A stretch of 64,000 nt of DNA from Candidatus Bipolaricaulis sibiricus (GTDB lineage Bacteria; Bipolaricaulota; Bipolaricaulia; Bipolaricaulales; Bipolaricaulaceae). Numbering within the stretch: the stretch's first letter is position 1; each line of letters starts with the position of its first letter. Location: the NCBI GenBank assembly GCA_004102645.1, contig CP034928.1, forward strand, positions 124,001 to 188,000, read 5' to 3'. The position numbers and the translations under genes were made by a program. The notes beneath the pieces were generated by a model. That model ran no database searches and was not told where the DNA came from. It was given only the letters and a program-made list of their open reading frames with translations. Of this stretch, positions 30,459 through 46,981 are shown one piece after another.

Positions 30459-31571
30459 GTGTCTCCTCCTCCGGCCCGCCAGTCCCGTTCATCTGGAGCC
30501 TCGCCGCCCTTGCGCGAGCATTCACCCGGGGTGTTCCCGACTTGAGCCTCAAGCCACCTGTTTCCCTCCGGCCTCTTTGCTCCGTCCCCCTCGGATTCCT
30601 CCACAGAACTACGGACCCGGGCGAACAGGCGGTCGAGGCCCTCTACGAAACGGTCCACGCCGTCCGTCGAAAGCGTGAGGCGCTTGTTCCGGCCGAGCTC
30701 CCTGGTCACCTCCTCCTCGGTCAGCGGTGGGAAGAACTCGGCGAACGCCTCGGGAGCAAGCCAGCCCCGCAGCTCCCCTGCTCTTGTTGGGCGGGTCTCG
30801 ATTGTGTAGAGCATCCGCGAGCGGTTGGCCTGCGGCGTGATCATGAGGGACCTCTTCCACGGTCGCAGGTAGAGGCCATGGCGCCTGGCCGCGTCGGTCA
30901 GTCTGCGGAACTCCATCCCCATTCCGTTGACCTCGGCGTCTGCCAGAAGCTCCTCCACGGACCGCGCCGTCCACTTGCGCGGTCCCGTCACCGGTGTCTC
31001 CACCTCCGAGAGCTCCCGAACGAGCACCCGTTGGCCACTCCCGAGTTCGTAGGCCTCGAACGTGACCGCCTTGATGGCAACCCCGTATCGCCGCGCCAGA
31101 AACCCCGCGACCCTGTCCAGGCTTGGGTCCCGACTCAAGCCGACCACGCACACGCGGAGTTCCCACTCGCCTTCCTCGTCCTCCTCAAGGAGCTCCTCAA
31201 CGGTTTCCCCCTCGGGTTTCCCCCTCGTCCTTCCCGGGCTCACCGAGGTAGTCCCTGACCTTGTCTCGGAGCTCTTCGGCCGACATGGTGGCGATACACG
31301 ATGCGTAGTCGAGGGCTTGCGCGAGGGTGTCCCGGTACAGCCGGTCCCGCTTGATCTCGATCAGGATCCACCGGCCCTGGGGGTCCACGGCCAGGAGGTC
31401 AACGACCCCACCCTCCGTCTGCACCTGTCGACCAACGATGCGCAGTCCCGTCTCGACGAGGTCTGGATCCGCCTCAATCCACGACTCGAGCCGCTTCTCG
31501 AAGTCGATCGCCGCAGGCTGGACCCGCTCCGGCCCGGCCTCTCCTATCCGCCACACTCCCAGCTGGCCCAT
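30455..31571 (-). pseudogene. DUF91/NucS-like nuclease gene split by a 13-bp tandem duplication
   Basis: The 5' frame (ATG 31571, after GGAGGAGGCGATGGC) encodes MGQLGVWRIGEAGPERVQPA, then a NucS-like nuclease core (GGVVDLLAVD, ILIEIKRDRL, DTLAQALDYAS). It ends early at ETRGGNR. The second frame (GTG/ATG from 31243) continues with EELLEEDEEGEWELRVCVVG and VKAVTFEAYELGSGQRVLVREL-type sequence. Deleting one copy of a 13-bp repeat at 31203-31228 joins them exactly (GKDEGETVEELLEE) into one protein of about 370 residues, the usual fused layout. It is either inactivated, phase-variable, or made as two coupled chains. It overlaps mcrB by 4 bp. Confidence 0.8.
31203..31228. repeat. 13-bp tandem duplication causing a frameshift
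   Basis: On the plus strand GTTTCCCCCTCGG (31203-31215) is followed at once by GTTTCCCCCTCGT (31216-31228). Twelve of 13 bases match. Thirteen is not a multiple of three, so the copy number decides the reading frame of the DUF91 nuclease gene. Confidence 0.9.
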
Positions 31572-31646
31572 GCCATCGCCTCCTCCATCCAAGGAACGAA
31601 ATCCTACACCTAACCCAACCTGCCCAGTGCAACCTGCGCGTTGCCC

Positions 31647-31674
31647 TTGACAGAGGCCCGGCAAGTCCTACAAT
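31647..31674 (+). promoter_or_regulatory. sigma-70 promoter on the plus strand in an otherwise minus-strand island
   Basis: A perfect TTGACA at 31647-31652, a 16-bp spacer and TACAAT at 31669-31674 lie in a 178-bp intergenic gap. No plus-strand protein gene follows. The predicted start near 31681 leads into a short hairpin-terminated RNA. Confidence 0.7.
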
Positions 31675-31680
31675 AAAGGC

Positions 31681-31749
31681 GTCCTCTACTCATAGAAGGG
31701 GATTCGCCAAGGTCTCGGCCGCTGAACCGCAATCAGCGGCCACGTTGTT
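31681..31749 (+). ncRNA. predicted small RNA with its own promoter and terminator
   Basis: About 70 nt run from the predicted start to a terminator. The terminator stem is GGCCGCTGA (31717-31725) paired with TCAGCGGCC (31733-31741), a perfect 9-bp stem with a 7-nt loop, followed by ACGTTGTTT. The RNA contains no start codon with a ribosome site. It converges on the 3' end of the small protein gene at 31750-32187 and runs against the direction of the whole island. A regulatory or antisense role is inference. Confidence 0.55.
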
Positions 31750-32187
31750 TCATGTCCACCTCGGGTTGGCACACATCTTCTTGAGAGCTGAGTCGCTGTC
31801 GACAACATAGGCCGTGATAAACCTCGCTCTGTTCTGGCGCTTGGGGTGCATCTGGATGATCACCGCGTAGCGTTCGGTGGGGTCAAGAGCGATTCGACGA
31901 ACCTTGCCAGCATTCATGACCCGCTTGTACAGCTCCGCGTTCGGATCGAGCAGGAGGGCTCGAATCCAGGGCATCCGCTCAGCTCGCTGCCGGTCGAACA
32001 CGGCCTTGTCCTTCGTCTGGCGGGAGCTGTCGCGGAAGAACGCGTGGTCAAACGTCTCGGGGAAGAACCCCACCCAGATTCCATCGAACGTCACAACTCC
32101 TGTCTGGCAATACGTCTCCTTGTAGTGGTGTCGGTAGTCATCGCTGGTTGGCAGGTCCAGGTAGGGAGGGAGGCTCATCGAACTCAA
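31750..32187 (-). CDS. small protein, possibly BECR-fold (RelE/EndoU-like) nuclease
   Basis: This is a 145-residue soluble protein. The C-terminal pattern RRIALDPTERYAVIIQMHPK then RARFITAYVVDSDSALKKM recalls phage-associated BECR-fold nuclease domains, in which an FxTAYxxD motif follows a strand of the form YxVIIxxxP. This is recall, not a search result. The middle segment ERMPWIRALLLDPNAELYKR resembles the preceding helices of that fold. It overlaps the DUF3800 gene upstream by 4 bp (ATGA) and is therefore its partner. Confidence 0.45.
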   Translation of the reverse strand: MSSMSLPPYLDLPTSDDYRHHYKETYCQTGVVTFDGIWVGFFPETFDHAFFRDSSRQTKDKAVFDRQRAERMPWIRALLLDPNAELYKRVMNAGKVRRIALDPTERYAVIIQMHPKRQNRARFITAYVVDSDSALKKMCANPRWT

Positions 32188-32939
32188 GGAGCGCGTGGTC
32201 GGAACACGAACACGTTGAACTTCGCCTCAGATCTTGTCGTTGGCCCAATAGGCCGTCCCAGACGTTGCTCGATGGCCTGCACCAGCTCCAGGCGTGCCGC
32301 GCTTTCAGTATGGCCGTGCAGCTTGCACCCCGTGGCTCCGAGCAGAACGTCGACAAGCTGCAGGAACCCAACCTGGCGCGACGGCAGGGCCTGCACAACG
32401 ATGTTCTTGCAGTCAGGTCGAGCTGTGCGCAACACCTGTTCGAGTACCCTTAGACGGTTGGGTAGCCGGTTGGTTCTGCGGTCCACAAAGATGCGATGCT
32501 CGCATCCGTCCTCCAGCCAATGCACAAGCAGCTGGTAGTAGAACTTGTAGAACATGAGCTCGCCGTCGCCTTTGTGGAACCTCTGTGCATCCAAGTCTCG
32601 GGCGGGCAGGGCAATGCAACGGAAGGCCATGTCCTCATCGAAGAACACGTTGATGACGTCCTTGTAGAAGTCGAGGCGCGATGGACTGACCCGGTTCCAC
32701 TTGAACTCCGCCCACACGTTATGCTGTGCGCGGACGCGTTTGATGCGCTCCTTGATCTGATCTCGATGCTCTCTTCTGAGCCACAGCCCGCCGATGAGAA
32801 CGTAGGCGGGGCCAGAGGGTGGCGGAGTGCGCAGGTACTCGGGACGGCTCTCGTCACAGTAGATCTCAATGCGTCCGCCGAGTTCACCGAGGCGTGTGCT
32901 ACCGGGAGATGCATTCCACTGGTCGTGGTACTCTGTCAC
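32184..32939 (-). CDS. DUF3800-domain protein
   Basis: The product has about 251 residues from GTG 32939, which overlaps the stop of the gene before it (GTGA). The frame continues further upstream without similarity. DUF3800 features are IEIYCDES with the first catalytic-type aspartate, YVLIGGLWL, AEFKWNRVS, HRIFVDRRTN with a second aspartate, and LQLVDVLLGA. The family has an RNase H-like fold and recurs in phage and defence loci, with unknown activity. Here it is the centre of a three-gene overlapping unit. Confidence 0.8.
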   Translation of the reverse strand: MTEYHDQWNASPGSTRLGELGGRIEIYCDESRPEYLRTPPPSGPAYVLIGGLWLRREHRDQIKERIKRVRAQHNVWAEFKWNRVSPSRLDFYKDVINVFFDEDMAFRCIALPARDLDAQRFHKGDGELMFYKFYYQLLVHWLEDGCEHRIFVDRRTNRLPNRLRVLEQVLRTARPDCKNIVVQALPSRQVGFLQLVDVLLGATGCKLHGHTESAARLELVQAIEQRLGRPIGPTTRSEAKFNVFVFRPRAP

Positions 32940-33286
32940 CCGTCCTCCTGGGCTGCAGCGATCCGCTCCCATGCCTCTAGCACCAACCGGCGGGTGCGGT
33001 AGTGGCCGAACTGTCTGGTCTCCTTGTCTTTGAGCACGCGGAACGTCTCGCCGGGGAAGTCGGAGGCGGCGGCGCAAGTTCGGCGATCCCCCTCCGACTG
33101 AAACGGCAGCAGGAGGCTGGCCCCCTCATCTTGGCCCCTTCCCACTGAGGGCGAGGGAGATGCCGGGACTAAGCTCTCGGGCTGAGCCTTGGCCCACAAC
33201 TCGAGCGGAGCGTCGAAGTCGATCGCCGCAGGCTGGACCCGCTCCGGCCCGCCCTCTCCTATCCGCCAGACTCCCAGCTGGCTCAT
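32936..33286 (-). CDS. chimeric small protein: DUF91 N-terminus joined to SDFPGETFR tail
   Basis: The first 24 residues (SQLGVWRIGEGGPERVQPA and AIDF) are nearly identical to the start of the DUF91 nuclease encoded at 31571, and the DNA upstream, including the ribosome site, also matches. The nuclease core is missing. After about 40 unrelated residues comes AASDFPGETFRVLKDKETRQ plus FGHYRTRRLVLEAW, which also occurs in the gene at 34743-34928. It looks like a recombination product retained as the first gene of the DUF3800 operon. Function is unknown. Confidence 0.6.
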   Translation of the reverse strand: MSQLGVWRIGEGGPERVQPAAIDFDAPLELWAKAQPESLVPASPSPSVGRGQDEGASLLLPFQSEGDRRTCAAASDFPGETFRVLKDKETRQFGHYRTRRLVLEAWERIAAAQEDG

Positions 33287-33468
33287 GCCATCGCCTCCTC
33301 CGATGAACGAAACAAGATACGACCCTAGCTACTTGCCACACCACATCCGCGCCGGTCCGGATGCTCCGGCGCTAGCGTCGGCTCGTCCAACCCCGTTCGA
33401 GTGTACCGATCGCTTGGATTCGGCCGGTTCTGCTCCTCCGCCTACGGGAAGTAGCTGTTCTTGCACAC

Positions 33469-33717
33469 TCAGACCGGATTAAGCCCCGCGAGCGCCTCGA
33501 CCTCCGCAAGGAAGATGGCGGCATCATCGGGCCCCAACCCCAGCTGCCTGAGGCACGCGCGCTCGACCAGCGCTGTGTGGGCAAGCGCTGGGAGTGTCGG
33601 GACATCGTTGACGAAGACAGTGCTATGTCGGTCTATGCCATCGGTCCCCCACGCCGATGGCGCAACCCGGACGACGGGGATGCCAGACCGACCATACGGC
33701 TCGCGCTTGCTCTCACC
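33469..33717 (-). pseudogene. possible reading-frame remnant after the MAKKK small gene
   Basis: One minus-strand frame, open but lacking a start codon, reads SGIPVVRVAPSAWGTDGIDR, HSTVFVNDVPTLPALAHTAL and VERACLRQLGLGPDDAAIFL before a stop at 33469. It has a natural-looking composition and would be continuous with the preceding small gene if a frameshift joined them. No family was recognised. Confidence 0.3.
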
Positions 33718-33718
33718 C

Positions 33719-33871
33719 CTACTCCGCCCGGTCCTCGACCATTTTCCTCCTTGTTCCTCTCGGTGCGTTGCCCTGTCCGTCGGTCTTGCCTTTCCTCACA
33801 AGCGCTGCAAGGTCTGGATCGGAATTAGGCTGAGGTGGGGGTAGCTTGCTGTCTCGCTTCTTCTTTGCCAT
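33719..33871 (-). CDS. small basic protein of unknown function
   Basis: A 50-residue product (MAKKKRDSKLPPPQPNSDPD at the start, ending RRKMVEDRAE) follows an excellent ribosome site, AGGAGGTGACCCT before ATG. It is hydrophilic and proline-rich near the N-terminus, with no recognisable domain. The stop lies just before the frame described at 33469-33717, so it may be the 5' part of a broken gene. Confidence 0.45.
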   Translation of the reverse strand: MAKKKRDSKLPPPQPNSDPDLAALVRKGKTDGQGNAPRGTRRKMVEDRAE

Positions 33872-33898
33872 AGGGTCACCTCCTTCTGTCTCAGCAGT

Positions 33899-34423
33899 CT
33901 ACAACAATGGGACTATGACCAGCCTCCCCAAGGCCAATATGCCTATACCTATGATCAGAAGCCACAAGGCCCAACAAAGGCGCCTTGACTTCACCTGGAG
34001 AACTTCTTTGTTGAACTCCCAGGCATCACCCAGGTTGCCACATATTGCCCGCATGGCGGACTCTGTAGGCGCATCGATGTATTTGTGAACTAGATTCTTG
34101 ACGTCTGGATCAAAGCGCTCGGTCATCGGTACGATGCTTAGAATAGACAGGACCATGCTTGCGAGGAGGGCAGCAGTACCTGTATAGGTGAACAGAAGAC
34201 CCAACGCTGCTCCTCCGGAGGCTGGCGACCCCTCAAGGGAGAACAACACCGCAAGAGCGGTGAGCCCAAGAAGGACACCGGTCTTGGTATCGAGTGCGTC
34301 AACCGCGGCCCCTAGGCGCTTCAGCTGCTCGAGCGCGACGTTCGCTACGTACTGGACAGCTCTGTCTTCGCTATCGTGCACTTGGTCCCTGTTTTTCTCG
34401 TGTTGCGTCACCACCCCTCCCAT
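33899..34423 (-). CDS. membrane protein resembling SLATT/Pycsar-type 2TM effectors
   Basis: This 174-residue protein has a soluble N-terminal helix with repeated acidic and glutamine residues (EDRAVQYVANVALEQLKRL), then DTKTGVLLGLTALAVLFSL as first membrane helix, LLASMVLSILSIVP as second, a cytoplasmic helical segment, and a final hydrophobic helix LCWALWLLIIGIGILALGRL. This layout with the DxKxxxLLG start is typical of the 2TM effector domains linked to cyclic nucleotide or other immune signalling. No cyclase or sensor gene is adjacent, so the trigger is unknown. It abuts the next gene upstream with no gap. Confidence 0.55.
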   Translation of the reverse strand: MGGVVTQHEKNRDQVHDSEDRAVQYVANVALEQLKRLGAAVDALDTKTGVLLGLTALAVLFSLEGSPASGGAALGLLFTYTGTAALLASMVLSILSIVPMTERFDPDVKNLVHKYIDAPTESAMRAICGNLGDAWEFNKEVLQVKSRRLCWALWLLIIGIGILALGRLVIVPLL

Positions 34424-34654
34424 CTAGACCTCTACGGCCGAAACTCCGACCCTTTCAGCCCAGGCTCGTACCGCTTCTCGAACTTTGGTGATGGCCTCTT
34501 CTTCAGTCTCGCCCCAAAACTCGTACGCAGGTGGGTCTTCTGCGAACTCCCTCTCGTGGAGCTTGGACTGGAAAACGGGACGAGCTGCAAACTTGAAGCG
34601 TCCCAGAGGCCTCATTGGTTCGGACTCGATCAGGTACCACACTTCATCTGGCAC
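34424..34654 (-). CDS. small HicB-like protein
   Basis: The product has about 76 residues from GTG 34654, which has an AAAGGAGG site 5-7 bp upstream; an in-frame TTG further upstream is less likely. The sequence DEVWYLIESEPMRPLGRFKF, then YEFWGETEEEAITKVREAVR, ends in AWAERVG. The last half has the ETEEEA helix pattern of HicB/DUF1902-type antitoxins. No HicA-like partner is next to it; instead the 2TM protein follows directly. A regulatory or antitoxin role for that protein is speculation. Confidence 0.45.
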   Translation of the reverse strand: MPDEVWYLIESEPMRPLGRFKFAARPVFQSKLHEREFAEDPPAYEFWGETEEEAITKVREAVRAWAERVGVSAVEV

Positions 34655-34742
34655 AGGTACCTCCTTTCGATGACTCGACAATGAACTCTTCTCAGATCTA
34701 TTGGGAGGTGTGGGTCCCCCTTCTGCCTTCTAAGGGAGGTCA

Positions 34743-34928
34743 TCATCGGGCCTCCTTGCCCTCCGCCCAGGACTGGAGCACCAACTGGCGGGTGCGGTAG
34801 TGGCCGAACTGCCTAATTTTCTTCTCTTTGAGCGCCCGGAAGGTTTCGCCGGGGAAGTCGGAGGCGGCAACAAGAACCGGTGTAGCGGCGGCTGGTCTCG
34901 TGCGCCTCGGCGGCATGGGGACGCTCAC
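34743..34928 (-). CDS. small protein with the SDFPGETFR element, coupled to the DUF499 gene
   Basis: This 61-residue product starts with GTG at 34928, overlapping the stop of the DUF499 ATPase gene (GTGA). Residues about 22-54 (AASDFPGETFRALKEKKIRQ, then FGHYRTRQLVLQSW) recur at 32936-33286 with few changes. Conservation of this element twice in the island, once directly coupled to the Hma-type ATPase, suggests it is a real small module rather than noise. Function is unknown. Confidence 0.5.
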   Translation of the reverse strand: MSVPMPPRRTRPAAATPVLVAASDFPGETFRALKEKKIRQFGHYRTRQLVLQSWAEGKEAR

Positions 34929-37900
34929 TCCTCCTCGAAGCCGGCGGAGCGGAACTTGAGCGTTACCGCGTTCTCGGTGACCGTCCGCACGACGTTCTCC
35001 GGCGCACCATCGGGGATCACGGCCTCGATCTCCAGCGTCACCGTCACCTCGGCCCCCGGCAGCCCCACCAGGTGCGCCACAATCTCCTCCGCAACCTGGC
35101 TTGCGTCCCGACCCGCACGCGTGGTGTTCAGGACCACGCTCCCGTGAAAGCGCTTTGGCCGGCGAGGCTTCTTCTCCTCGGGGGCTCTCCCCGGACCTTC
35201 GGGTTGCCGCCCGCCCCCTTTCGCTGGCCCGGTCGGCGTTGTCACAGTCTGCATCCCCTCCGCTGCGAGCTGTCGCCGCGCTACGTCGGGCTTTACCACG
35301 AGGCCTTGGTCATCTTCCGTGACCCGGACCTGGGTTCCGGCCTTCAACCCCTGGTACCGCCCTGCTCCCTCGTCGTACGCCGCGGCGTAGGCGAACCCGT
35401 CGTTCTCCCACGTGAGCTGCCCCACGCCGTCGGACACGGCCGCCGCGAGCACCGCCGGGCTCTTCAGCCGCGGCAGGTACACATACCGTGCGAAGTCCTC
35501 GACGAGCTGGCGCACCTCCACGTGGTCCCCTCGCCACAGCGGCACGCGATCGAGCGCCATCCGCAATCGAACGCCGCCAAGGCTCGTCAGGAGAAGCTCC
35601 TGTCTTGCGAGCTTCCTCCCTACCCGCACGGCGAGGCCCTCGCTTCCCTGGAGGGGGATCTCGGTCCACGTGACCGGCTCCTCGGGGCTCCCCTGGACGG
35701 GGACGAGTGCCCACCGGTACACCTCGGGGAGCCTGGCGTCCACGGTGGCCTCCTCTCCCCGTCGCCGCTCCTCGGCGTTGCGCACCTGGAAGGGCGAGAG
35801 ATCGAGCGCGTCCTTGTCCCGGAGAATGGAGTCCCAGGCCAAGTACCGTCGCACCGCAGCGTCGAGGTCCTGCAGCTGCGATCGGTCCGGGGCGAGGAAC
35901 ACGAGGGCGTTGCGGTAGATCCGCGGTGCGTTGCCCCGTGTCTCCAGGATCTGTCGCGCCGCCGCCAGCGCGGGGCTCTCCTCTCCCTTGGCGTGTGGAG
36001 ACGAGATCCCCAGCACGACGAGGCGAGCATCGGGGTCATCCGGGATGTCCGCGCTCGATTGGGGGAAGGGATGGACGCGCGCGAAGTCTCCGGCCTGCCG
36101 GACTTCCCTCCGCACGCGGTTCTCGATCTCCTTGGCCACCTTCTCCGGCTCGCGCAGGAGCTGCTCGGCCCGGTCGTCGGCGAGCTTCGCCACCGTGGGC
36201 TGGGTGGTGTACCAGTACCGGTTCCCATCCTGGTAGAGGTACGTCGCGTCACCGGCGAGCCTCCGCAGGGCATCCCCGAACACCGCCACCGGCTCCCCGG
36301 GCATCACGCACCCGAGGTGCACGCGCCGATCCTCGATCCCCTGGTGCGCTGCCTTCTGGATCGGAGCCGACCCGAGGAAGATCGTCCGCGCCACGCGGCG
36401 CGACGCGGCGTACTTGCCGAGGTTCGACGCCTCACCGTCCAGTCGCACCGGAAGCGAGTTCGGCCCGTCCACGTCCTTCTCGATGACCGGGGCCCAGTTG
36501 TCGGGGAGGTAGCGCGTGAGCTCGAACTGCACCCGCGGCTCGTCGAGGGGGATCGTGGAGGGGAGGATGAGCGGGCTCTTGTCGCCGCGTTCCCACAGGC
36601 AGTGGATCACGGCCGCCATCAGCCGCAGCACCCCGCGCGTTCGCTGGAACTTGAGGAGCGTCGACCAGTCGGTGTACAGGCGGTCGAAGATCTCGGGGTG
36701 GATCGGGTACGCGGCCTTGATCCGCCTCTCGTAGTCAGCCTCGCCACACTCCGAGGGGAAGTCGCCCCTGTTGCGGCGGTAGAGCTCGGCGAACGCCCGG
36801 GCGGTCACGTCCCGCGCCTTGAACGCAGCGGGATCGGCTAGGGAATCGAACAGACGCCTGCGGACGATCTCGAAGCTCTCCTCGGCCGACGCGGGCCGCC
36901 ACGACGACTCGACCCGCCCGATCACGTTCCGCAGCCGCTCTAGAGCCTCGCGGCCGCGCAGGCCGCCCACCTCGACATCCTCAGCTTGGGCATGGGGCGA
37001 GGATGCGCCCTCCGACGCAGGCAGGCTCACCACCACCAAGCACTGGGGGACCGCCTTCGCCGACTCGGTGAGGGCCTGGGCGAACGTGAACTGGGTTTCG
37101 AAGCTGCCCCCGGGGAGGTCCGCGCCATCGTGGAGCTGGCGGGCGTAGGCCACCCACTCGTCGATGAGGATCAGGCACGGGCCATAGTCGCGCAGGAGCT
37201 CCCGTAGCCGGTCGCCGGGGTTCGTGGCCCGCTCGTCGTCGGCGCGGATCCGGTCGAACGCCTTCCGTGCCTCCTTCGCTCCGCCCTTGGCGTGGCCGAG
37301 CTGCCAGGCGAGCTCTCCCCATAGGGTGTGGACCTCAGTTCCATCTGGTTTTTTCGTGGGGTTCCCCGGCGAGAGGCGGTTGCCCACGAGGACCACCCGG
37401 TGGACCTCGGGGAGCTTCTCCACCCCAGCCTCCGCCAGGAGTTCCTCTACCCCAGGCAGTTCGTTCGGCGCCGCACCGGAGAACAGGTGATACAGGGCGA
37501 GGAGCGAGTGGGTCTTGCCGCCACCGAAGTTCGTCTGGAGCTGAACCACGGGGTCGCCCCCCGTGCCGGCGAGGCGCTCCGCCGCCCGCACGAGGAGCGT
37601 TCGCAGGCTGTCCGTGAGGTACGTGCGACGGAAGAAGGCCACCGGGTCCCGGTACTCGTCGCTTCCCTCGCCGAGGTAAACCTGCCACAGGTCGGCGGCG
37701 AACTCCGCCTCCTGGTAGCGGCCGCTCGCCACGTCGGGGTGTGGCGAGATGATGTCGCGCCACGGCGTGAGGGCGCCTGTGGCCACTGCCTCGACGAGCG
37801 ATCCTCCCACGCGCCGCCGCTCGCCCCGCACCTCCTCGTCGAACTGCTGGCGCAGGAGCTGGCGCTTCATCTTCGCCACCTCCGCAGCCTCGGGGGCGGA

Positions 37901-38266
37901 CACCGCGGTGAGCAGCCGCTCCACCGAGTCGAGCGCCCGGTAGGCGTCGTCGCCGGAGAACGTCTCCTGGTGCGCCCAGCGTTTGCGGACCTCCCGCAGC
38001 TCGGAGACGATGCTCCGCTCCGCGTACCCCAGGGTCTTCTTGAACGCCGCGTTCCAACCCTCCCACATCAGCTTGAGGAGCGCTGCGGCGTCCCACTCGG
38101 CGAGGGGCTTGCCGGTTGCGAGGCGCTCGTCCGCCGACAGCTTCTCCACGAGCCGTTTTGCCTCCTCCTCGGAGATCGTCCGGATCTCGCGTTCGATGAA
38201 CGGCGCGAGCCCCTTCTTGAGGAGCTCTAGCGCCCTGCCCACCCGCTCATGGTTCGTGATCGCCAC
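34925..38266 (-). CDS. DUF499 ATPase of an Hma-like (helicase-methylase-ATPase) defence locus
   Basis: This 1113-residue cytosolic P-loop ATPase has Walker A in LQTNFGGGKTHSLLALYHL and Walker B in CLILIDEWVAYARQL, the two hallmarks of the DUF499 family. A long helical C-terminal half and a lysine/arginine-rich linker (EEKKPRRPKRFHG) precede the last 70 residues. GTG 38266 follows GAGGAGGT. With the DUF1156 methylase upstream and the DUF3883 helicase at the head of the locus it makes the gene set catalogued as Hma. The role is anti-phage restriction or modification by inference; the mechanism is not known to me. Confidence 0.85.
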   Translation of the reverse strand: MAITNHERVGRALELLKKGLAPFIEREIRTISEEEAKRLVEKLSADERLATGKPLAEWDAAALLKLMWEGWNAAFKKTLGYAERSIVSELREVRKRWAHQETFSGDDAYRALDSVERLLTAVSAPEAAEVAKMKRQLLRQQFDEEVRGERRRVGGSLVEAVATGALTPWRDIISPHPDVASGRYQEAEFAADLWQVYLGEGSDEYRDPVAFFRRTYLTDSLRTLLVRAAERLAGTGGDPVVQLQTNFGGGKTHSLLALYHLFSGAAPNELPGVEELLAEAGVEKLPEVHRVVLVGNRLSPGNPTKKPDGTEVHTLWGELAWQLGHAKGGAKEARKAFDRIRADDERATNPGDRLRELLRDYGPCLILIDEWVAYARQLHDGADLPGGSFETQFTFAQALTESAKAVPQCLVVVSLPASEGASSPHAQAEDVEVGGLRGREALERLRNVIGRVESSWRPASAEESFEIVRRRLFDSLADPAAFKARDVTARAFAELYRRNRGDFPSECGEADYERRIKAAYPIHPEIFDRLYTDWSTLLKFQRTRGVLRLMAAVIHCLWERGDKSPLILPSTIPLDEPRVQFELTRYLPDNWAPVIEKDVDGPNSLPVRLDGEASNLGKYAASRRVARTIFLGSAPIQKAAHQGIEDRRVHLGCVMPGEPVAVFGDALRRLAGDATYLYQDGNRYWYTTQPTVAKLADDRAEQLLREPEKVAKEIENRVRREVRQAGDFARVHPFPQSSADIPDDPDARLVVLGISSPHAKGEESPALAAARQILETRGNAPRIYRNALVFLAPDRSQLQDLDAAVRRYLAWDSILRDKDALDLSPFQVRNAEERRRGEEATVDARLPEVYRWALVPVQGSPEEPVTWTEIPLQGSEGLAVRVGRKLARQELLLTSLGGVRLRMALDRVPLWRGDHVEVRQLVEDFARYVYLPRLKSPAVLAAAVSDGVGQLTWENDGFAYAAAYDEGAGRYQGLKAGTQVRVTEDDQGLVVKPDVARRQLAAEGMQTVTTPTGPAKGGGRQPEGPGRAPEEKKPRRPKRFHGSVVLNTTRAGRDASQVAEEIVAHLVGLPGAEVTVTLEIEAVIPDGAPENVVRTVTENAVTLKFRSAGFEEE

Positions 38267-38269
38267 GCG

Positions 38270-38416
38270 CTATACCTCCTCTTCGCTGAACATCGTGCGG
38301 GTCTCCGCCCGTTCGCCAGAGCCCGTCCGTGCCAGGCGGAGGATCTCCGGCCAGCTCTGGACGAGGGCGTTGTAGGCGGGCGTCCTCCCGATGCGTTCAT
38401 GATTGGTCACGGACAT
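38270..38416 (-). CDS. 48-residue chimeric reading frame between methylase and ATPase genes
   Basis: It starts 4 bp after the methylase stop behind GGAGGACTGAATC. Its first residues MSVTNHERIGR parallel the start of the DUF499 ATPase (AITNHERVGR). The rest, PAYNALVQSWPEILRLAR, parallels the end of the DUF1156 methylase (QAYNALVLGWPEVARLAG), and both end in an acidic tail. It therefore joins an ATPase beginning to a methylase ending. It may be translated, since a ribosome site is present, but it is best explained as a scar of recombination. Confidence 0.6.
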   Translation of the reverse strand: MSVTNHERIGRTPAYNALVQSWPEILRLARTGSGERAETRTMFSEEEV

Positions 38417-38419
38417 GAT

Positions 38420-41278
38420 TCAGTCCTCCGGTTCAGCAGAGAAGCCAAGGTCCTTTTGGGAGGTCCTGTGCTCCCCGGCAAGCCGGGCCACCTCCGGCCA
38501 GCCCAGGACAAGTGCATTGTAGGCCTGCGCGTCCTGGGAGCGCCCCTTCTTCTCGGCCAGGTCGAACAACCGGTAGGCCAGGTCGCGCGCAAGCTCGCCC
38601 CTCGCCCCGAGCTTCCGCAATAGTTCCGCCGTGGCCACATCCCCCGCCTTCTCATCGTAATAGATCCGGACGAGGTGGTGCGTGGCCTCCCAGACCGGAA
38701 GCCGCCGATCCTTATCCGGGTTCCAGTCCCCGGGCAGCTCGGCGGGCCGGAGCAGGCGTACCTTGCCGCCTCTGGAAGCCACGATGCCGGCCTCCACCAG
38801 AGCGCTCACGCTCGTCACCTTGGCCTTGGAGAGAAGCTCGGCCTGGCCGAACTCACCCTCCTCGAAGCCGTGCTGCTCGTACCAGGCGATGGCCCAGCGG
38901 GTGTCGGCGTCGAACTCGTCCTCCTGCTCGGAGAGCACTTCGGTCAAGGTCTGGTTGATGAGGGCCAGGGCCGTGCGCACGCTCATGGGCCGGCCGCTCG
39001 CCTCCAGAATCCGGCGGTACTTCGAGTAGATCGCCATCCCCGGACCGATGGCGGCCTGGGCGAAGTCCACGGGCGCGATGTTGCCCTGCTGCAGGCGCCG
39101 GAGCGCCGCCGGCAGCTCCCCCTTGAGCTCGGCCACAAAGGCGCGGCGGTCGGTCTGAGGGGCGTCCTCGGGCCGGGGGCGGCAGGCCAGCACGATGTAT
39201 GAGGCCAGGGCATTGGCGCCCATCGCGTTCTGCCGCCACTTCTGGGCCGAGCGCACGGGCCAGGTGGCGGTGATCTGAAAGCCCGTCTCGATGAGGGCGT
39301 TGAGCATGGTCTCCCAGCCGGTGGTCCGGTCCAGCCGGTGGCCCTTCCCGCCGCCGCTCCCCTCTTCCTCGTCGGCGCCGCTCTCCTCGTCGTCCTGCTT
39401 GAAGGCGTAGTACACGGTGAGGGGAAAGCGCGGGTCCATCTTTTCGCGCAGCACAGCAAAAGCACGGCGGAAGCCCTGCTCGAAGTGCTCCCTGGCCTTG
39501 TGTCGGTCGCCGCCGAAGCGCTCGGGGGCTGCCACCAGCTCCGGGGCTTTGGGGACCAGGATGGTTCCGAAGAGGTCAGGGTACAGCTCGCCGACGGTGC
39601 GCCTGAGCCAGACGTAGAAGAAGTCCGAGAGGGCGGCATAGCCGATGTTGTCGTAGTAAGGGGGATCTGTGGAGACGAGGACGTTCCCGAGGCCGTCCCA
39701 GGAGCTTGCCGCGTCGATGGGGCGGGCGTGGCCTTGATGCGACACAGCGAACGAGTCGATGCACTTGCCCGTACGCTCGACACATGTGGACCATCCGCCA
39801 ACTACATCACCCAAGACATTCACCTCGGCAAAGTCCCACACCATCGGGATGGCTTGGCGCTTGAAAAGATTCCGCGCGACCTGGTCCGAGTGGTTCCAAG
39901 TGCACAGAATGTTTCCGAGATCGGCGGCTCGATCAAGATTCAGGGCCAGGAAGGTGGTGACGGCGCGGGCGTAGTCCTCAACTTCTGCCGGCGAGAGCCC
40001 GGCACGCTCGGCATCCCGCCGCACCTCGGCCCGCACCTCTCGGATCAGCTCCGAAAGCGTCACCAGCGCCGTGAGCTGCCGGGGGGTGAAGAGATCGCCG
40101 AAGGTTCTCAGGCCGTAAGGCGGTGTCCAAAGCGCACGTGGGTCGTGCGCAATTGTCTCTTCCGGCCTCCACGCCGGCGCCGCCTGTCGGGCAACCACCT
40201 CGTGCTCCTCCGTCGCTGGAAGGTAAATTCTCCCCCGGCCCGTGTCGGCCACGATGGCCGTAAGCCGCGTCTGGAGCCGCCCCGCCCTGCCCTGCGCCTT
40301 GATGTAATCGTCGCCGATGGGATCGCCCGTCAAGAGACAGCGGAAGGTCGCCCGGCCGGTCTTGGTGCCCGCCTTGACCGCCTCACGGTCCCCCGGCGCC
40401 CCGGTGCGCACGACGAAGCGCCACGTTCCGGCCGTCCGGTCCACGACGGGTTCCAGGTACGCCTCGCTGCCCTTCTTGCTCGAAAGCCAGAAGGTGCTCA
40501 TGAGCGGCACGTGCGCCCCGCGGGCCGCGGGGTTCGGGCTCGGCACCGTACGCGCCCAGAGCCAGGCAATCACGGGCAGTGCCTTGCCAACATAGGGCTC
40601 GAGGTGCGGATGCTCGGCGGCCATCTCCGCCGTGACCCTGACCGTCGGATACAGATGGCCGATTTTCTCGCGCGCCCGCTCGAGGATGACCCGGCCGTAA
40701 TAGCGCACATCGGCAGCAAGCCCGCCCGCCCCGCGCCAGCCCGCCGTGCTGCCGATCCTGCTCCGGTCCTCCGGATTGACCGGCGGCCAGTCGGCCCAAC
40801 GCGGCACGATCTCCAGGTACACCTTGTTCAGCAGCACCGCCACCGGGTTGAGGTCGCCGGCGTACGCCTCCATCCCCAGGCGCGCAGCTTCGAGCGGGAT
40901 GGAGCCGCCGCCCGCGAAAGGATCGAGCACAGGAGGGAGCTTGCCGTCGCAGTACTTGAGCATCTCCGCCCGCGCCTCGGCGTATATCTCGGGGTGTTTG
41001 TGGAGCTGCCTCTGCATGAGGTCGCGGATGATGCCGAAGAGCCGCTCCCGCTCGCGCTCCTGGGCTTCGTCGGTGGGGAAGCGCTCGGGATGAGCCGACG
41101 GATCGTCCACCACCGAGGCGAATAGCACCGCCCGGCTCACCGGCAACGGCAGCCGTGCCCACCAATGATGGATCCCCTTGGGATGCGCCCCGATCCCCGG
41201 CATCTTGTCGTAGGCCGAGGCGTCGTTGATCTCGGAGAGCGGCAACGCGACTTCAATCAGTTTCTTCTTGGCGATCAT
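38420..41278 (-). CDS. DUF1156-containing DNA methyltransferase of the Hma-like locus
   Basis: The product has about 952 residues from ATG 41278 (MIAKKKLIEVALPLSEINDA). An upstream extension is not conserved. The DUF1156 start ends in GIHHWWARLPLPVSRAV. S-adenosylmethionine motif I is PVLDPFAGGGSIPLEAARLG with YAGDLNPVAV, and catalytic motif IV is VSTDPPYYDN, an amino-methyltransferase (N6-adenine or N4-cytosine) signature. A long insertion separates the motifs. It would mark host DNA for the partner ATPase and helicase. The C-terminal AYNALVLGWPEVARLAG segment recurs in the next small frame. Confidence 0.88.
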   Translation of the reverse strand: MIAKKKLIEVALPLSEINDASAYDKMPGIGAHPKGIHHWWARLPLPVSRAVLFASVVDDPSAHPERFPTDEAQERERERLFGIIRDLMQRQLHKHPEIYAEARAEMLKYCDGKLPPVLDPFAGGGSIPLEAARLGMEAYAGDLNPVAVLLNKVYLEIVPRWADWPPVNPEDRSRIGSTAGWRGAGGLAADVRYYGRVILERAREKIGHLYPTVRVTAEMAAEHPHLEPYVGKALPVIAWLWARTVPSPNPAARGAHVPLMSTFWLSSKKGSEAYLEPVVDRTAGTWRFVVRTGAPGDREAVKAGTKTGRATFRCLLTGDPIGDDYIKAQGRAGRLQTRLTAIVADTGRGRIYLPATEEHEVVARQAAPAWRPEETIAHDPRALWTPPYGLRTFGDLFTPRQLTALVTLSELIREVRAEVRRDAERAGLSPAEVEDYARAVTTFLALNLDRAADLGNILCTWNHSDQVARNLFKRQAIPMVWDFAEVNVLGDVVGGWSTCVERTGKCIDSFAVSHQGHARPIDAASSWDGLGNVLVSTDPPYYDNIGYAALSDFFYVWLRRTVGELYPDLFGTILVPKAPELVAAPERFGGDRHKAREHFEQGFRRAFAVLREKMDPRFPLTVYYAFKQDDEESGADEEEGSGGGKGHRLDRTTGWETMLNALIETGFQITATWPVRSAQKWRQNAMGANALASYIVLACRPRPEDAPQTDRRAFVAELKGELPAALRRLQQGNIAPVDFAQAAIGPGMAIYSKYRRILEASGRPMSVRTALALINQTLTEVLSEQEDEFDADTRWAIAWYEQHGFEEGEFGQAELLSKAKVTSVSALVEAGIVASRGGKVRLLRPAELPGDWNPDKDRRLPVWEATHHLVRIYYDEKAGDVATAELLRKLGARGELARDLAYRLFDLAEKKGRSQDAQAYNALVLGWPEVARLAGEHRTSQKDLGFSAEPED

Positions 41279-41515
41279 CGGCCCTCCCTCATCCAGCTCT
41301 TCCCAGCATCGGGGCCCGCACGCGCCGGGGACAATCCCGGTCGGGCCGTGCCGTCCTGGTCCACGGTGGTGCGAACTCGGAAGGAAGTCGGAACCTCTTC
41401 TCTTCCGAGTCGAAGGCGTGGTCCTTGGAAACGCGTTCCCCATTCCCCTCCGCACGTAGTCGTGCGTCCGCCCGCTGGGCGTGGACCCCGGCGAGGCGCC
41501 TCGGGTGGGGCGACC

Positions 41516-42154
41516 TCAGTCGGTCCCGTCAAAGAGCCCTCCGATGCCCCTGGAGCCGGGGGCGCTCGCCGCCAACACGGCGCGGAGGCACGCGATCGCC
41601 CCCGCCAGACTAGGGGATCGCCCCTCAGCAACCCTGGGCTGCCAGTGGTCGCGGGCGAAGCTCGCTAACCTCGACGCGTACGCCCGCCCCTCCCGCCGTC
41701 CGCTTCGCGGGTCCGGCACCAAGTCCTCACGTATCAAGCGCTTGCGAGACCGGCGCGCCAGATCGACCACGGTTGCCTTGGGATCGCGCAGGGTTTCCGG
41801 GTCGGCCGGTACCACTCTTTCGCTCACCCCCAGGAAGCGGGCGATGCCGGCCCGGTCGGCGAGCAGCCACGCCTCCACCTCGCGCACTGCTACGCGAAAG
41901 CAGAGAAAGGGCGCCCGGCGGGGAAGCCAAGCGGAGACAAGCCGAGGAGCACACGGTTCTTGGGTGTTCAGGTCGACCAACACCAACCACGGGGCTCGCT
42001 GCGCGGCCTTGTTCCACGCAGTGATCTTGCTCCGGAGGTACTCCTTCCCCTTTTCCCCGTACACCGTACCCGGCTGCCCGCCCACCCCCCGGATCAGCCG
42101 CTCGGCAACTGCGCGGTCCACCGAGCCCTCCACGGCGATGCTCACCGCTGTCAT
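41516..42154 (-). CDS. TOPRIM/DUF4276-like partner of an ABC-type ATPase
   Basis: This 212-residue protein begins TAVSIAVEGSVDRAVAERLI, the glutamate-containing first strand of a TOPRIM-like fold, followed by WLVLVDLNTQEPCAP and FRVAVREVEAWLLADRAGIA. Later DPKATVVDLARRSRKRLIRE and SPSLAGAIACLRAV are segments I associate with small DUF4276-like proteins paired with AAA ATPases. The usual DxD of TOPRIM appears as DLN here. It overlaps the ATPase gene by 4 bp (ATGA). The pair resembles split OLD-type or PARIS-like defence modules; assignment to either is not established. Confidence 0.6.
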   Translation of the reverse strand: MTAVSIAVEGSVDRAVAERLIRGVGGQPGTVYGEKGKEYLRSKITAWNKAAQRAPWLVLVDLNTQEPCAPRLVSAWLPRRAPFLCFRVAVREVEAWLLADRAGIARFLGVSERVVPADPETLRDPKATVVDLARRSRKRLIREDLVPDPRSGRREGRAYASRLASFARDHWQPRVAEGRSPSLAGAIACLRAVLAASAPGSRGIGGLFDGTD

Positions 42155-43341
42155 TGGTCAGCAAAGAGCGGAAGCTCCTCTACACCTTCTGGCTCCGTGC
42201 GCGGGAACACGGCGTCGGCAATGGAAAGACCGCCTTCCACCAGATCCCGAACTTCCTCGAAGCTGGAAGCCGGCCTCACGACTGTGCCCTCAGCTTCCGG
42301 AACCAAGAGCAGGACCTCGTGAAGGCCGATGCCGGGGTCGCTCAGCAGCTCAGAGGAGTGGGTGCTGACGATGAACTGCCGACCGGTCTGGCTGACCATC
42401 CGGCCAAACATCTGGGGGATCTGGCGCACGATCCCTGGGTGCAAGGAGAGCTCCGGCTCCTCCAGCAGGAGAGGTCCGGTCCCGTCAAGAAGCGCCCACA
42501 GCAGTCCCACGAGCCGCAGGGTTCCGTCGGAGAACTGCCGCTCATCCTGCCAGGCGCCCTGGGGGCGCCAGTGGACGTAGCGTCCCTTAAGGTGGTAGGT
42601 TCCCGTCTGGTCTGGCTCGAGTTGAATGTCCCTGAGTTGGGGGACCGCGGGCTTCAGAGCCCGCTCGATCCTCCGCAGCCGTTTTTCGCGTTCGCGCTTG
42701 GATGTTGTCGCCACTTGTTGGATGAAGTCCGCTCCGAACGGGTCTCCCGTTGGCCCCTGGTAGCGCTGTGGCTCACGGATGAGGTGAGGGACGACATGGA
42801 GATACCGGACCGAGGAGAGGAACTCTGCAAGGTCGCGGAACTCGCGGTTCATCGTCACCTGCTCGAGGTGGGTCTGGGAGAGGAGGGCGGGGTCGCCCTT
42901 GTCTGCGCCCGTCGGTCGCTGGACGATCTCCTCACCTTCGTGCTCAACGCGCTCGGTCACCACCCGAGCGCGGCCATTTCTCCCGCTGCTGAACGTGAGG
43001 CTGTACCTCCAGACCGACGTGCCGTCAACAGGTCCAACTCTCACGCTAACGGTGATGTCGGGCTCTCGCCGTGCCGCCAGACACCTGATCGGTCCCACCC
43101 CTCCGCGCAGGCGGACTGCTTCCTGAAGTCCTCCGCGGCTGACGATGTCGCGCAAAAACCGGAACGCATCCTGAAGGTTCGTCTTGCCAGAGGCGTTGGG
43201 CCCCACGAGAAACACCCGTTGCCCAAGGCCCACGTCAACAGCAGGGAAGTTCTTCCAGTTCTGCAGCGCCAGGCTTGTGAAGGTCCACGTCCCCCGACTC
43301 AACTGTCTGCCCTCCCCCGAGCCTTTCCCGCTCCGCATCAT
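42151..43341 (-). CDS. ABC/OLD-type AAA ATPase of a two-gene module
   Basis: The product has about 396 residues from ATG 43341; an extension to 43437 is unlikely. The N-terminal TFTSLALQNWKNFPAVDVGL and Walker A LVGPNASGKTNLQDAFRFL are SMC/OLD-like. The C-terminal half has the signature-like FSDGTLRLVGLLWAL, Walker B LLLEEPELSLHPGI and the H-loop FIVSTHSSELLSDP. It pairs with the TOPRIM-like gene that overlaps its stop. The pair sits between the helicase and methylase genes, where the Hma set would otherwise be contiguous, and reads as an embedded module. Confidence 0.8.
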   Translation of the reverse strand: MMRSGKGSGEGRQLSRGTWTFTSLALQNWKNFPAVDVGLGQRVFLVGPNASGKTNLQDAFRFLRDIVSRGGLQEAVRLRGGVGPIRCLAARREPDITVSVRVGPVDGTSVWRYSLTFSSGRNGRARVVTERVEHEGEEIVQRPTGADKGDPALLSQTHLEQVTMNREFRDLAEFLSSVRYLHVVPHLIREPQRYQGPTGDPFGADFIQQVATTSKREREKRLRRIERALKPAVPQLRDIQLEPDQTGTYHLKGRYVHWRPQGAWQDERQFSDGTLRLVGLLWALLDGTGPLLLEEPELSLHPGIVRQIPQMFGRMVSQTGRQFIVSTHSSELLSDPGIGLHEVLLLVPEAEGTVVRPASSFEEVRDLVEGGLSIADAVFPRTEPEGVEELPLFADQ

Positions 43342-43399
43342 GATAGCACCCGCTGTCGATCGTGCCCAGGCATCCGGTCGCCCCGTATCCCCATTCGGT

Positions 43400-46300
43400 T
43401 CAGTGCGGACCTTCGGCCCGCTTGAGAAGCTCGGCAAAGTACAAGTTCACGCTCGCCCCGTTGAAGTCCACGGTCACGCCGCTGCGCTCGAACGGCCGCC
43501 GCACGTAGTGCACCCGGTGCTCACGCTCTCCGAAGAACTCGACGATCGCCAGGATGTAGTCGTCGGGCTTGTTCAGGCTCGTCAGGACCTCATTCTTCGT
43601 GACGGTGATCGTGTCAGCACCGGCAGCGCGGCCCTTGACCTCGATGAACCGGAGCCTTCCTGTCCGTGGGTCCTTGCTCTCGATGTCGTAGCCGAGCTTC
43701 TCGTCCTCCCGATCTACAGGAAGGAACCCGAGCTTGCGCTCGACCTCGATCACGATCGCCCGCGCTGCCGCGGCCACCTTCTGCCGATCTACCTCTTCTC
43801 GGTCGTCGACCATGGGCTTACCCGCGACCTTCGCCAGGAGCCCGAGGGGCACGACGAGCACCCCTCCCCCCACCACCGGCGGCAGGGCCGTAATCTGTTC
43901 CTCCCGCTTCAGCTCATCCATCCGTCGCTCGAGCCGGGCCTGCAGCTCGTCGGCCCGCCGGCGGGCCTCCTGCCAGTTCAGCCGTGCCCCCACCTTGCCG
44001 GCCTCCTCGTCGAGCTTGAGCTGGGCTGCCCGGTTGTCCCAGTGCAAGATCTCCTTCGCGAGCCGGTCCTTCACCTCGGCGCGCGTCTTCGCTACCCACG
44101 CCAGCCGTCGCTCCCGCACCTCCCGCAGGTGCTCGGGCACCACGGTGGCCACAGCATGTTCGATCACGCGGACCTCCAACCCCGCCTGAACCCATTCGCA
44201 CTCCGGACTCGCAAGGATCGCGTCCACCCCGGGCTCGTCGGGGCGGAGGGGCCGGTAGTCGAGGTACGGAGCGTGGTAGAGGTGGCGCGCTTGGCCAGCC
44301 GCGTCGATCTCTACGTACAGGACGCGCCGGGAGATCACGCGGTGCTCGCCGCTCGGTAGGACGCTCCCATCCTGAATCGCGTGCTCGACGAAGAACAACG
44401 CCCGTGGGGTCGTCCCAAGGTCCGCTTCGTCCACCAGCACCGTCCCCCGCTTGAGAAGGTCCCGGTGGGCCTCCAGGGTGAGGTCCACCACCGCGTCCAA
44501 CAAGGGATGCCCCGGGCACACGAACGCGGCCAGGGGTTGTCCCGGTGGCGCGATGAGTTCCTTCTCGAACGTGATCCTCTCGTACCGCGGCAGGATGGGA
44601 TCGCCGATTCCGGTCTGCCGGTCGCGGCGGCGGATCGCGGCGGGGACATGGGTGATCTCGTACCGCCGCGGCTCCCGCTGTCGGGCCGACCCACCCAGGC
44701 GCCGGAGCGCTTCGAGGAAGAACGCCTCGACGTAGTGGGGCTGCAGCCGCCGCGCTTCGGCCCGCTCCATGTCCTCCCGGATCCGGCCCAGCCGTGCCGG
44801 GTCCATCACCTCGTGGGCAAGGGCCTTGTTCTCGACCAAACTCTGAACGTGCTCGGGGTCAAAAGCATCGGCGATCGCCTGGCTCAGCTTCGCCCGCACC
44901 TCGGGCCGCTCGCCGTAGCGAACAGCCTCGATGAGGAGGTCGCGCAGGGGACGTCCCTCGAACTGGAGCTTCCCGAGGACGTCGAACACCTGGCCCCCCA
45001 ACCGCTGCCGCACCTGCTCGATCTTGTCGAGCAGGGTGCGATACACGTCTCCCTCGCGGGTCTCGACCGCGACGAGGTTCCACAGGTGGCAGACCTCGGT
45101 CTGGCCGATGCGGTGGATTCGACCGAAGCGCTGCTCGATCCGGTTCGGGTTCCATGGGAGGTCGTAGTTGACCATGAGGTGGGCGCGCTGGAGGTTGATC
45201 CCCTCGCCTGCGGCGTCGGTGGCCACGAGCACCTGAACCTGGGGGTCGTACAGGAAGGATTCCTGGGCCTTCCGACGTTCCTCCCGGCCCATTCCGCCGT
45301 GGATCGTCACCACCGCCTCGGGGCGCCCGAGGAGCGTGCTGATCCGTTGTTCGAGGTAAGCGAGGGTGTCGCGGTGCTCGGTGAAGACGAGGAGCTTCTG
45401 TCGGGGTGAGGCCACGGGCTTGGGCAGGGGGTCCTCGCTGTAGGCAGGGCGGGGCTCGCCCACCTGGGGGGCAAGGGCGGCGGGGGTGAAGATCTCCCCG
45501 AGCAGGCTCGCCAGCTCTCGCCACTTGCGGTCCTCGCCGCTCGCGCGCACGCGCAGCGCGAGCTCCTCGAGCCGCTTCAGGGTCTCGATTTCAACCTGCA
45601 GCTCGTCCAGTGTCCGCGCGGCCGTCGCGCGGTCGAGGATCTCCTCCTCCGCCTGGGCGACTTCGGTGTCGGGCGCGTCCTCGAGGTCCTCAAGGGTCTC
45701 GGCGTCCAGGGCTGGCGTGACGAGATTGGCTACGGACGCACCTCGCTGCAGGACCTCGAGCTCGCGGAGCTGGCGCTCGATCCTCTCCTTCCGTCGGCGA
45801 AGAGACTGGTAGATCGCCTCGGGTGAGGAGGCAAGCCGGCGTTGGAGAATCGTGAGGGCGAACCCGACCGTGCCGGCGCGGCGGTTGTCGGCGAGGGCCT
45901 CGGCGCGGTTGAACTCCTCGCGCACGTACTCCGTGACCTCCTTGTAGAGCTGCGCCTCCAGGTCTGATAGCCGGTACGGGACGGTGTACGCGATCCTCTC
46001 GGGGAACAGGGGCGTACCGTCGAACTTGACGAGCTTCTCCTTCACCATCCGGCGCATCAGGTCCGAGACGTCCACCTGGTGTACGCCATCGCGAAACCGC
46101 CCTTCGAACCGGTCGCCATCGAGGAGGGCCATGAACAGCTGGAACTCCTCTTCCTTTCCGTTGTGCGGGGTCGCGGTGAGGAGGAGAAAGTGCCGGGTCA
46201 ACCTGGAGAGAAGCTGGCCCAGTTGATGGCGCTTCGTGTACTTGATCTCGCCGCCGAAAAACGTCGCCGACATCTTGTGCGCCTCGTCGACCACGATGAG

Positions 46301-46981
46301 GTCCCACCGACACTCCGGGGCAGCGAGCCTCGCCTGTACGTGCTCGTCGCGGGCGCACTTGTCGAGCCGGGCGATGACGAGTGGCGTCTCGGCGAACCAG
46401 TTGCCCGTCCGTGCGGCCTCCAGCTTGTCGTTCGTCATGATCTCGAACGGAAGATGGAACCGCTGGTACAGCTCGTCCTGCCACTGCTCGATGAGGCTGC
46501 CGGGGCAGACGATCAGACATCGCTCGATGTCACCACGGACGATCAGCTCCTTGATGAGAAGGCCGGCCATGATCGTCTTGCCGGCGCCCGGGTCGTCGGC
46601 GAGAAGGAACCGCAGCGGCTGCCGGGGGAGCATCGCCTCGTAGACCGCCGTGATCTGGTGGGGCAGGGGCTCGACAAGCGACGTGTGCACGGCAAGGAGA
46701 GGATCGAACAGGTGTGCAAGACGAATCCGGTACGCCTCGGCAGTCAGGCGGAACAGTGCCCCGTCCGCATCGAAGCTCCACGGCCGGCCCCGGGTGACGA
46801 TCGACAGCCGTTCCTCGTCGCTCCGGAACAGGAGTTGCGAGGCCACACGGCCGGAGGGGTCCTTGAACGTGACCTCGACCGCCTCCGAGCCAAGCCACTG
46901 CGCCTGAACCACGGTGGCTGGGCTGTCAAGGATGAGCCCGTGGATCACCGCCCCCGGGTGCAGGTCCTCGAGCCGTGTCAT
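43400..46981 (-). CDS. SNF2-type helicase with C-terminal DUF3883, head gene of the Hma-like locus
   Basis: This 1193-residue protein has helicase motifs in order: LLADDPGAGKTIMAGLLIKE (I), LIVVDEAHKMSA (II, DEAH), LLLTATPHNGKEEE (III), VTIHGGMGREERRKAQ (IV), LVATDAAGEGINLQRAH (V) and QRFGRIHRIGQ (VI). The C-terminus has LGYDIESKD then RLRFIEVKGRAAG, a DUF3883 domain with PD-(D/E)XK-like residues. Long charged helices (RRADELQARLERRMDELKRE) lie before it. It should move on or remodel DNA for the restriction function of the locus and is transcribed first in the minus-strand island. Confidence 0.88.
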   Translation of the reverse strand: MTRLEDLHPGAVIHGLILDSPATVVQAQWLGSEAVEVTFKDPSGRVASQLLFRSDEERLSIVTRGRPWSFDADGALFRLTAEAYRIRLAHLFDPLLAVHTSLVEPLPHQITAVYEAMLPRQPLRFLLADDPGAGKTIMAGLLIKELIVRGDIERCLIVCPGSLIEQWQDELYQRFHLPFEIMTNDKLEAARTGNWFAETPLVIARLDKCARDEHVQARLAAPECRWDLIVVDEAHKMSATFFGGEIKYTKRHQLGQLLSRLTRHFLLLTATPHNGKEEEFQLFMALLDGDRFEGRFRDGVHQVDVSDLMRRMVKEKLVKFDGTPLFPERIAYTVPYRLSDLEAQLYKEVTEYVREEFNRAEALADNRRAGTVGFALTILQRRLASSPEAIYQSLRRRKERIERQLRELEVLQRGASVANLVTPALDAETLEDLEDAPDTEVAQAEEEILDRATAARTLDELQVEIETLKRLEELALRVRASGEDRKWRELASLLGEIFTPAALAPQVGEPRPAYSEDPLPKPVASPRQKLLVFTEHRDTLAYLEQRISTLLGRPEAVVTIHGGMGREERRKAQESFLYDPQVQVLVATDAAGEGINLQRAHLMVNYDLPWNPNRIEQRFGRIHRIGQTEVCHLWNLVAVETREGDVYRTLLDKIEQVRQRLGGQVFDVLGKLQFEGRPLRDLLIEAVRYGERPEVRAKLSQAIADAFDPEHVQSLVENKALAHEVMDPARLGRIREDMERAEARRLQPHYVEAFFLEALRRLGGSARQREPRRYEITHVPAAIRRRDRQTGIGDPILPRYERITFEKELIAPPGQPLAAFVCPGHPLLDAVVDLTLEAHRDLLKRGTVLVDEADLGTTPRALFFVEHAIQDGSVLPSGEHRVISRRVLYVEIDAAGQARHLYHAPYLDYRPLRPDEPGVDAILASPECEWVQAGLEVRVIEHAVATVVPEHLREVRERRLAWVAKTRAEVKDRLAKEILHWDNRAAQLKLDEEAGKVGARLNWQEARRRADELQARLERRMDELKREEQITALPPVVGGGVLVVPLGLLAKVAGKPMVDDREEVDRQKVAAAARAIVIEVERKLGFLPVDREDEKLGYDIESKDPRTGRLRFIEVKGRAAGADTITVTKNEVLTSLNKPDDYILAIVEFFGEREHRVHYVRRPFERSGVTVDFNGASVNLYFAELLKRAEGPH

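Follow-up and report, generated by a model that had tools for sequence, protein, structure and literature searches.

The window analysed here is a 64,000-nucleotide stretch of DNA from Candidatus Bipolaricaulis sibiricus (contig CP034928.1, positions 124,001 to 188,000). It contains an operon on the minus strand whose genes encode a helicase (HmaA), a methylase (HmaB) and an ATPase (HmaC), together with an accessory module and a frame of 48 codons. All three core components were recognised by profile and domain searches and, judged from its genes, the operon is of the Hma or Type-1 BR (BREX-related) type and a candidate phage defence system. Type-1 BR is the name used for operons of this helicase/DUF1156 methylase/DUF499 ATPase type (PMC12839542). 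As in the systems outlined there, helicase, DUF1156 methylase and HEPN-DUF499 ATPase share one operon with an embedded accessory module, but the window differs by its chimeric scar frame and by a methylase lineage that is mismatched with helicase and ATPase. The features are compiled in Table 1. The annotated start of HmaB is doubtful and the true start probably lies near 41280, because homologues align only from about residue 60 of the annotated protein.

Table 1. Features of the Hma operon and of the 48-codon frame (positions within the window)
Feature	Position	Strand	Evidence
HmaC: Swt1-like HEPN + DUF499 ATPase	34925..38266	−	PDLC00662 (E 0), PF18731 (N-terminal HEPN), PF04465
Chimeric 48-codon frame (scar)	38270..38416	−	translation, neighbours, start and end profiles
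Tail: last 35 codons + stop of HmaB, G005/G027 kind	38270..38377	−	DNA matches
GGAGG, 8 nt 5' of HmaC GTG, within last scar codons	38275..38279	−	sequence
Junction: two ambiguous codons ACG CCC (T, P)	38378..38383	−	sequence; origin ambiguous
Head: first 11 codons of HmaC (DUF499 ATPase), another lineage	38384..38416	−	profile, DNA identity
HmaB: DUF1156 N6-adenine methylase, L048/L049 lineage	38420..41455	−	PDLC00660 (E 0), PF06634
GGAGG, 8 nt 5' of scar ATG, within last HmaB codons	38425..38429	−	sequence
HEC-01B (DUF4276), embedded module	41516..42154	−	domain and defence profiles
HEC-01A (AAA_21 ATPase), embedded module	42151..43437	−	domain and defence profiles
HmaA: SNF2-type helicase, C-terminal NOV_C domain	43400..46981	−	PDLC00659 (E 0), helicase domains

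The HEC-01 pair (HEC presumably standing for Hma-embedded candidate) sits between helicase and methylase in the window. Modules at the HmaB-HmaC boundary differ within the genus (L042:1500-2163; L041:14949-16830): in genome G001 there is a pair which, read by eye, resembles a nucleotidyltransferase and a HEPN protein, and in G005 there is HEC-03. Downstream of HmaC, positions 31462-34868 of the window hold two direct-repeat pairs about 1.7-1.8 kb apart (31462-31586/33177-33301, 86%; 32968-33070/34766-34868, 85%), near a DUF3800 gene matching PADLOC PDC-M04A; part of this is common to G001. The window's genome (G000) has a second, divergent DUF1156-DUF499 locus (L162, G000:C1:1078000-1090000).

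The 48-codon frame lies between HmaB and HmaC, separated from each by a spacer of 3 nt, and its translation is MSVTNHERIGRTPAYNALVQSWPEILRLARTGSGERAETRTMFSEEEV, followed by a stop codon. Upstream of it the methylase ends in AYNALVLGWPEVARLAGEHRTSQKDLGFSAEPED and a stop codon, and downstream the ATPase starts with VAITNHERVGRALELL. The frame itself starts with MSVTNHERIGR, like HmaC, while its end, from AYNALVQSWPEI onwards, resembles that of HmaB. Against a profile of HmaB ends the tail scores an E-value of 1.1e-8. For the 11-residue head and a profile of HmaC starts the value is 0.07, which is weak alone, and the head is in register with the conserved HmaC start. Translation, end profile and register confirm the preliminary description of the frame as an ATPase start joined to a methylase end, and the 11 + 37 division given there equals the present one with the two ambiguous codons assigned to the tail. 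A chance resemblance to the end of HmaB was ruled out by the E-value of the tail together with its DNA matches to G005 and G001. At the join, HmaC (R-A-L) and HmaB (E-A-L) have in common a short GC-rich stretch in frame, and a microhomology over Ala-Leu, possibly common to both parents, is suggestive only.

The DNA of the tail was compared with other methylase ends. Over a 51-nt core it is 94% and 92% identical to the ends in G005 and G001, respectively, in contrast to 74.5% for the window's own methylase and a median of 69% for 97 methylase ends. Longer alignments to the HmaB ends of these two genomes, both of the same genus as the window, give 87.9% over 91 bp (G005) and 89.6% over 67 bp (G001). 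The tail belongs to a different methylase lineage than the adjacent HmaB, which bears out the earlier reading of the frame as a recombination relic. It had also been expected that each half would be closest to a second lineage of its gene, and for the tail this holds. The head and the HmaC start of the window have only 64% identity (rank 50 among 73 alignable HmaC starts), so the head is not a recent copy of that start; no donor was found among the HmaC starts compared, 33 nt being too short to fix a lineage.

Among 100 genomes of the class, the window itself aside, the best match to the scar is a methylase end in G027 (locus L196), which belongs to the same family and another genus. There, a methylase frame running from the contig edge for 248 aa ends in GERAETRDMFAKEEV and a stop codon, and HmaC follows after 3 nt. 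Scar tail, spacer and HmaC start align with this region without gaps over 127 bp at 82.7% DNA identity. G027 thus retains the unrecombined parent-type junction for the tail, an ordinary methylase end directly before the ATPase, and in the window, by comparison, only the last 35 codons of such a methylase are left, attached to an HmaC start. In the trees, the helicase of G027 is of another lineage and its ATPase is not placed with that of the window.

The proteins of the operon do not have a common set of relatives. Amino acid identity between the window and G005 is 85.1% for HmaA and 83.7% for HmaC, but 54.4% for HmaB. The nearest relatives of the window HmaB come from a Bacillota MAG (L048, about 75-77%) and a Limnochordaceae MAG (L049, 73%), whose helicase (75-76%) and ATPase (66-70%) are more distant. 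Quick trees of 33-35 rows placed the window with G005 for HmaA (support 100) and with G001 (98), then G005 (100), for HmaC, whereas the window HmaB grouped with L048 (100) in a clade without G005 and G001. In the full-length HmaB tree the methylases of G005 and G001 are not sisters, and therefore at least one of them must have been exchanged too. Searched against phages, the window methylase matched only distant archaeal-virus methylases (5 records).

Divergence at 4-fold sites between G000 and G005 is 0.503 for HmaA and 0.477-0.497 for rpoB and three tRNA-synthetase genes, which we take to be valS, ileS and leuS; the helicase of the operon has therefore diverged like the genome. The similarity to G005 reaches the end of HmaA (43413) and stops there because the accessory genes differ. 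The chromosomal flanks are absent from G005 and occur just as fragments in G001; the event may therefore be older than the arrival of the operon in this genome.

We conclude that the frame is, with high probability, the recombination scar of a methylase exchange between two divergent Hma operons. The first lineage would have given the complete upstream methylase (HmaB1) and the first 11 ATPase codons beyond its stop, and the second, of the G005/G027 kind, the last 35 methylase codons and the whole ATPase gene. The crossover would have been staggered, with its breakpoint within HmaC in one of the two molecules and within the last part of HmaB in its partner; the HmaB-HmaC boundary is therefore present twice. 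We infer a staggered or microhomology join here and homologous exchange at the other side; the head presumably arrived together with HmaB1. Such a combination of a short-homology join with ordinary recombination at the other side is a known process, described in PMC6382021 as homology-facilitated illegitimate recombination. There, too, homology anchors the foreign DNA at one side and a few bp serve for the join at the other (PMC6382021); the window differs in that the mechanism is deduced from the sequence and no donor of the head turned up. Since the methylases are 54% identical, and helicase and ATPase are single and of the genus type, the event joined two different operons. The earlier proposal that the frame records an ancestral duplication of core defence genes is thus not supported.

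Regarding the direction of the exchange, we lean moderately towards HmaB1, perhaps with HEC-01, as the newcomer; that the lineage-2 HmaC arrived with the methylase end appears considerably less probable, and the remainder falls to the loss of genes from an array, discussed below. With HmaB1 as the incoming part, the exchange would have one of its ends between helicase and methylase; for an incoming HmaC with the methylase end a single crossover would be enough. HmaB is less diverged from L048 at 4-fold sites than HmaA (0.519 and 0.661, a comparison blurred by the lower GC3 of L048, 0.68-0.77), which suggests that HmaB moved. In the same way, HmaC (0.426 to G005 and 0.371 to G001) is less diverged than HmaA and the four housekeeping genes are between G000 and G005, suggesting that HmaC moved. 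The HmaB topology (L049,(L048,window)) would also fit vertical descent of HmaB1.

The same product would result exactly if a methylase-ATPase-methylase-ATPase array had lost its middle ATPase and methylase, as proposed in the preliminary description. Tandem methylases do exist (L131), but a second methylase-ATPase pair in tandem was found in none of the 102 loci with a strong HmaB. Moreover, an array born by duplication should hold similar copies, while the two methylases of the window are only 54% alike, and a direct exchange needs no former tandem stage. We therefore regard the array as improbable. The equal spacing first suggested that some 150 bp spanning the HmaB-HmaC boundary had been duplicated locally in tandem and had diverged afterwards, and the 147-150 bp offset of the copies and the 3-nt spacers fit this. 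It was dropped on sequence and is very unlikely, because the tail is far closer to the ends in G005, G001 and G027 than to that of the adjacent methylase (over the core, 94% for G005 and 92% for G001 versus 74.5%) and the head is so dissimilar to the window's HmaC start. It is possible that such a duplication took place in lineage 2 and the methylase was then replaced, a course that must account for the foreign head. Hardly credible is an independent conserved small gene that resembles both neighbours, such as a HEPN-domain regulator: the frame is open, preceded by GGAGG and without decay, but conserved small genes of this layout, named beforehand as the finding that would speak against a relic, are absent, the layout occurring in one of 100 class genomes (the window's own), in one of 76 distinct HmaB-HmaC pairs and in none of 72,556 plasmids, no Pfam family matches, and in G027 the sequence of the tail closes a longer methylase frame.

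Exchange of the methylase was then considered across Hma operons. Over 61 loci (1830 pairs, which are not independent of each other), the correlation of identities is 0.948 between HmaA and HmaC and 0.60 between HmaA and HmaB. Most loci were picked by likeness to methylases, which narrows the HmaB range; an internal control from the same sample is provided by the C-terminal part of this protein. This part (residues 781-1000) correlates at 0.79 with HmaA and 0.83 with HmaC, in contrast to 0.38-0.47 with HmaA for residues 62-780. When HmaA is at least 75% identical (224 pairs), HmaB falls below 60% in 66 pairs and HmaC in 0. A Mesorhizobium pair (L050/L070) has 99.1% identity in HmaA and 95.6% in HmaC but 69.4% in HmaB, with sharp breakpoints in the DNA: identity is 86-100% from the helicase into the start of HmaB, 60-78% over HmaB, and 86-99% again in HmaC. 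In the viral contigs L130 and L136 high DNA identity resumes already ahead of the HmaB end. This return and the C-terminal correlation indicate that helicase, ATPase and the C-terminal part of HmaB usually remain together. In the window, by contrast, the whole methylase appears to have been exchanged. HmaB exchange thus looks general among Hma operons.

Profiles of gene starts and gene ends were used to scan the collected loci, 102 of which have an HmaB above 500 bits. Locus L111 carries, between HmaA and HmaB, an in-frame chimera of 114 aa made of an HmaB start (E 2e-32) followed by an HmaA end (E 2e-20). At the DNA level it has 94% and 89% identity with the genes of its own operon, and the accessory stretches flanking it are dissimilar to each other. 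The chimeras of the window (HmaC start, HmaB end) and of L111 (HmaB start, HmaA end) are independent cases of the same kind. Gene-start stubs were present in six loci, five with an HmaB start (L044, L052, L085, L097, L102) and one with an HmaC start (L066); hits at or running to contig edges (L020, L071, L121) and parts of split or contig-cut genes were left out. The stubs of L097 and L066 are near-identical to their operons' own gene starts (99% over 105 bp and 98% over 57 bp, respectively) and therefore look like recent module insertions. The DNA of the L052 stub does not match the HmaB start of that operon; it comes from another methylase lineage and therefore mirrors the relic of the window.

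A broader model, which we put forward tentatively and do not favour over its negation, would treat Hma as a fixed helicase-ATPase chassis. The plug-in methylase body and accessory modules would enter by out-of-register recombination at gene boundaries and leave a chimera in which the start of the next gene runs in frame into the end of the preceding gene, with partial forms in L066, L097, L052 and others; translated scars would keep the operon coupled.

In the window the join is in frame, and both boundaries retain GGAGG before the start codon. The ribosome-binding site of HmaC probably lies within the scar frame. Because GGAGG stands 8 nt before both starts, the second time inside the scar, it is plausible that the scar is still translated, and it may then pass ribosomes from HmaB on to HmaC. 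Both chimeras found (window and L111) are in frame, for which the chance expectation is once in nine.

Other arrangements of duplicated methylases were also seen. Two divergent tandem methylases are followed by one ATPase in L131:5586-14118 (HmaB, HmaB, HmaC), and an inverted partial HmaB (residues about 222-771) lies upstream of a full HmaB in L123:7955-9610. In L084:5501-12907, a near-complete inverted HmaB copy lies upstream of HmaB, with two phage-integrase-family recombinase genes (PF00589) between them; by analogy this is probably an invertible methylase switch, PglX-like as in some BREX loci. In L. rhamnosus the BREX locus combines a complete PglX methylase with a partial one, and a site-specific integrase lies between the two (PMC7513527). 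L084 has both a second methylase and an integrase, unlike the window, which has neither. In hsdS switching of Type I restriction-modification systems, the part bearing specificity is likewise exchanged and the rest retained (PMC7394358); duplicated genes recombine there within one cell, whereas in the window a whole methylase would have passed between divergent operons, leaving an out-of-register seam. In the literature searched, no description of exchange of Hma/DUF1156 methylases or of such chimeras was found, and the words recombination, exchange, shuffling and swap are absent from the main text of PMC12839542.

The scar is physical evidence that an Hma (BREX-related) operon can have its methylase replaced while helicase and ATPase remain, and the swap would have altered the sequence methylated by the system. 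If the operon still works, the methylase body would be a plug-in carrier of sequence specificity, as HsdS is in Type I systems. The prediction is that the same helicase and ATPase with swapped methylases would modify and restrict different sequences. Scars of this kind also offer a handle on how accessory defence genes become embedded in Hma operons.
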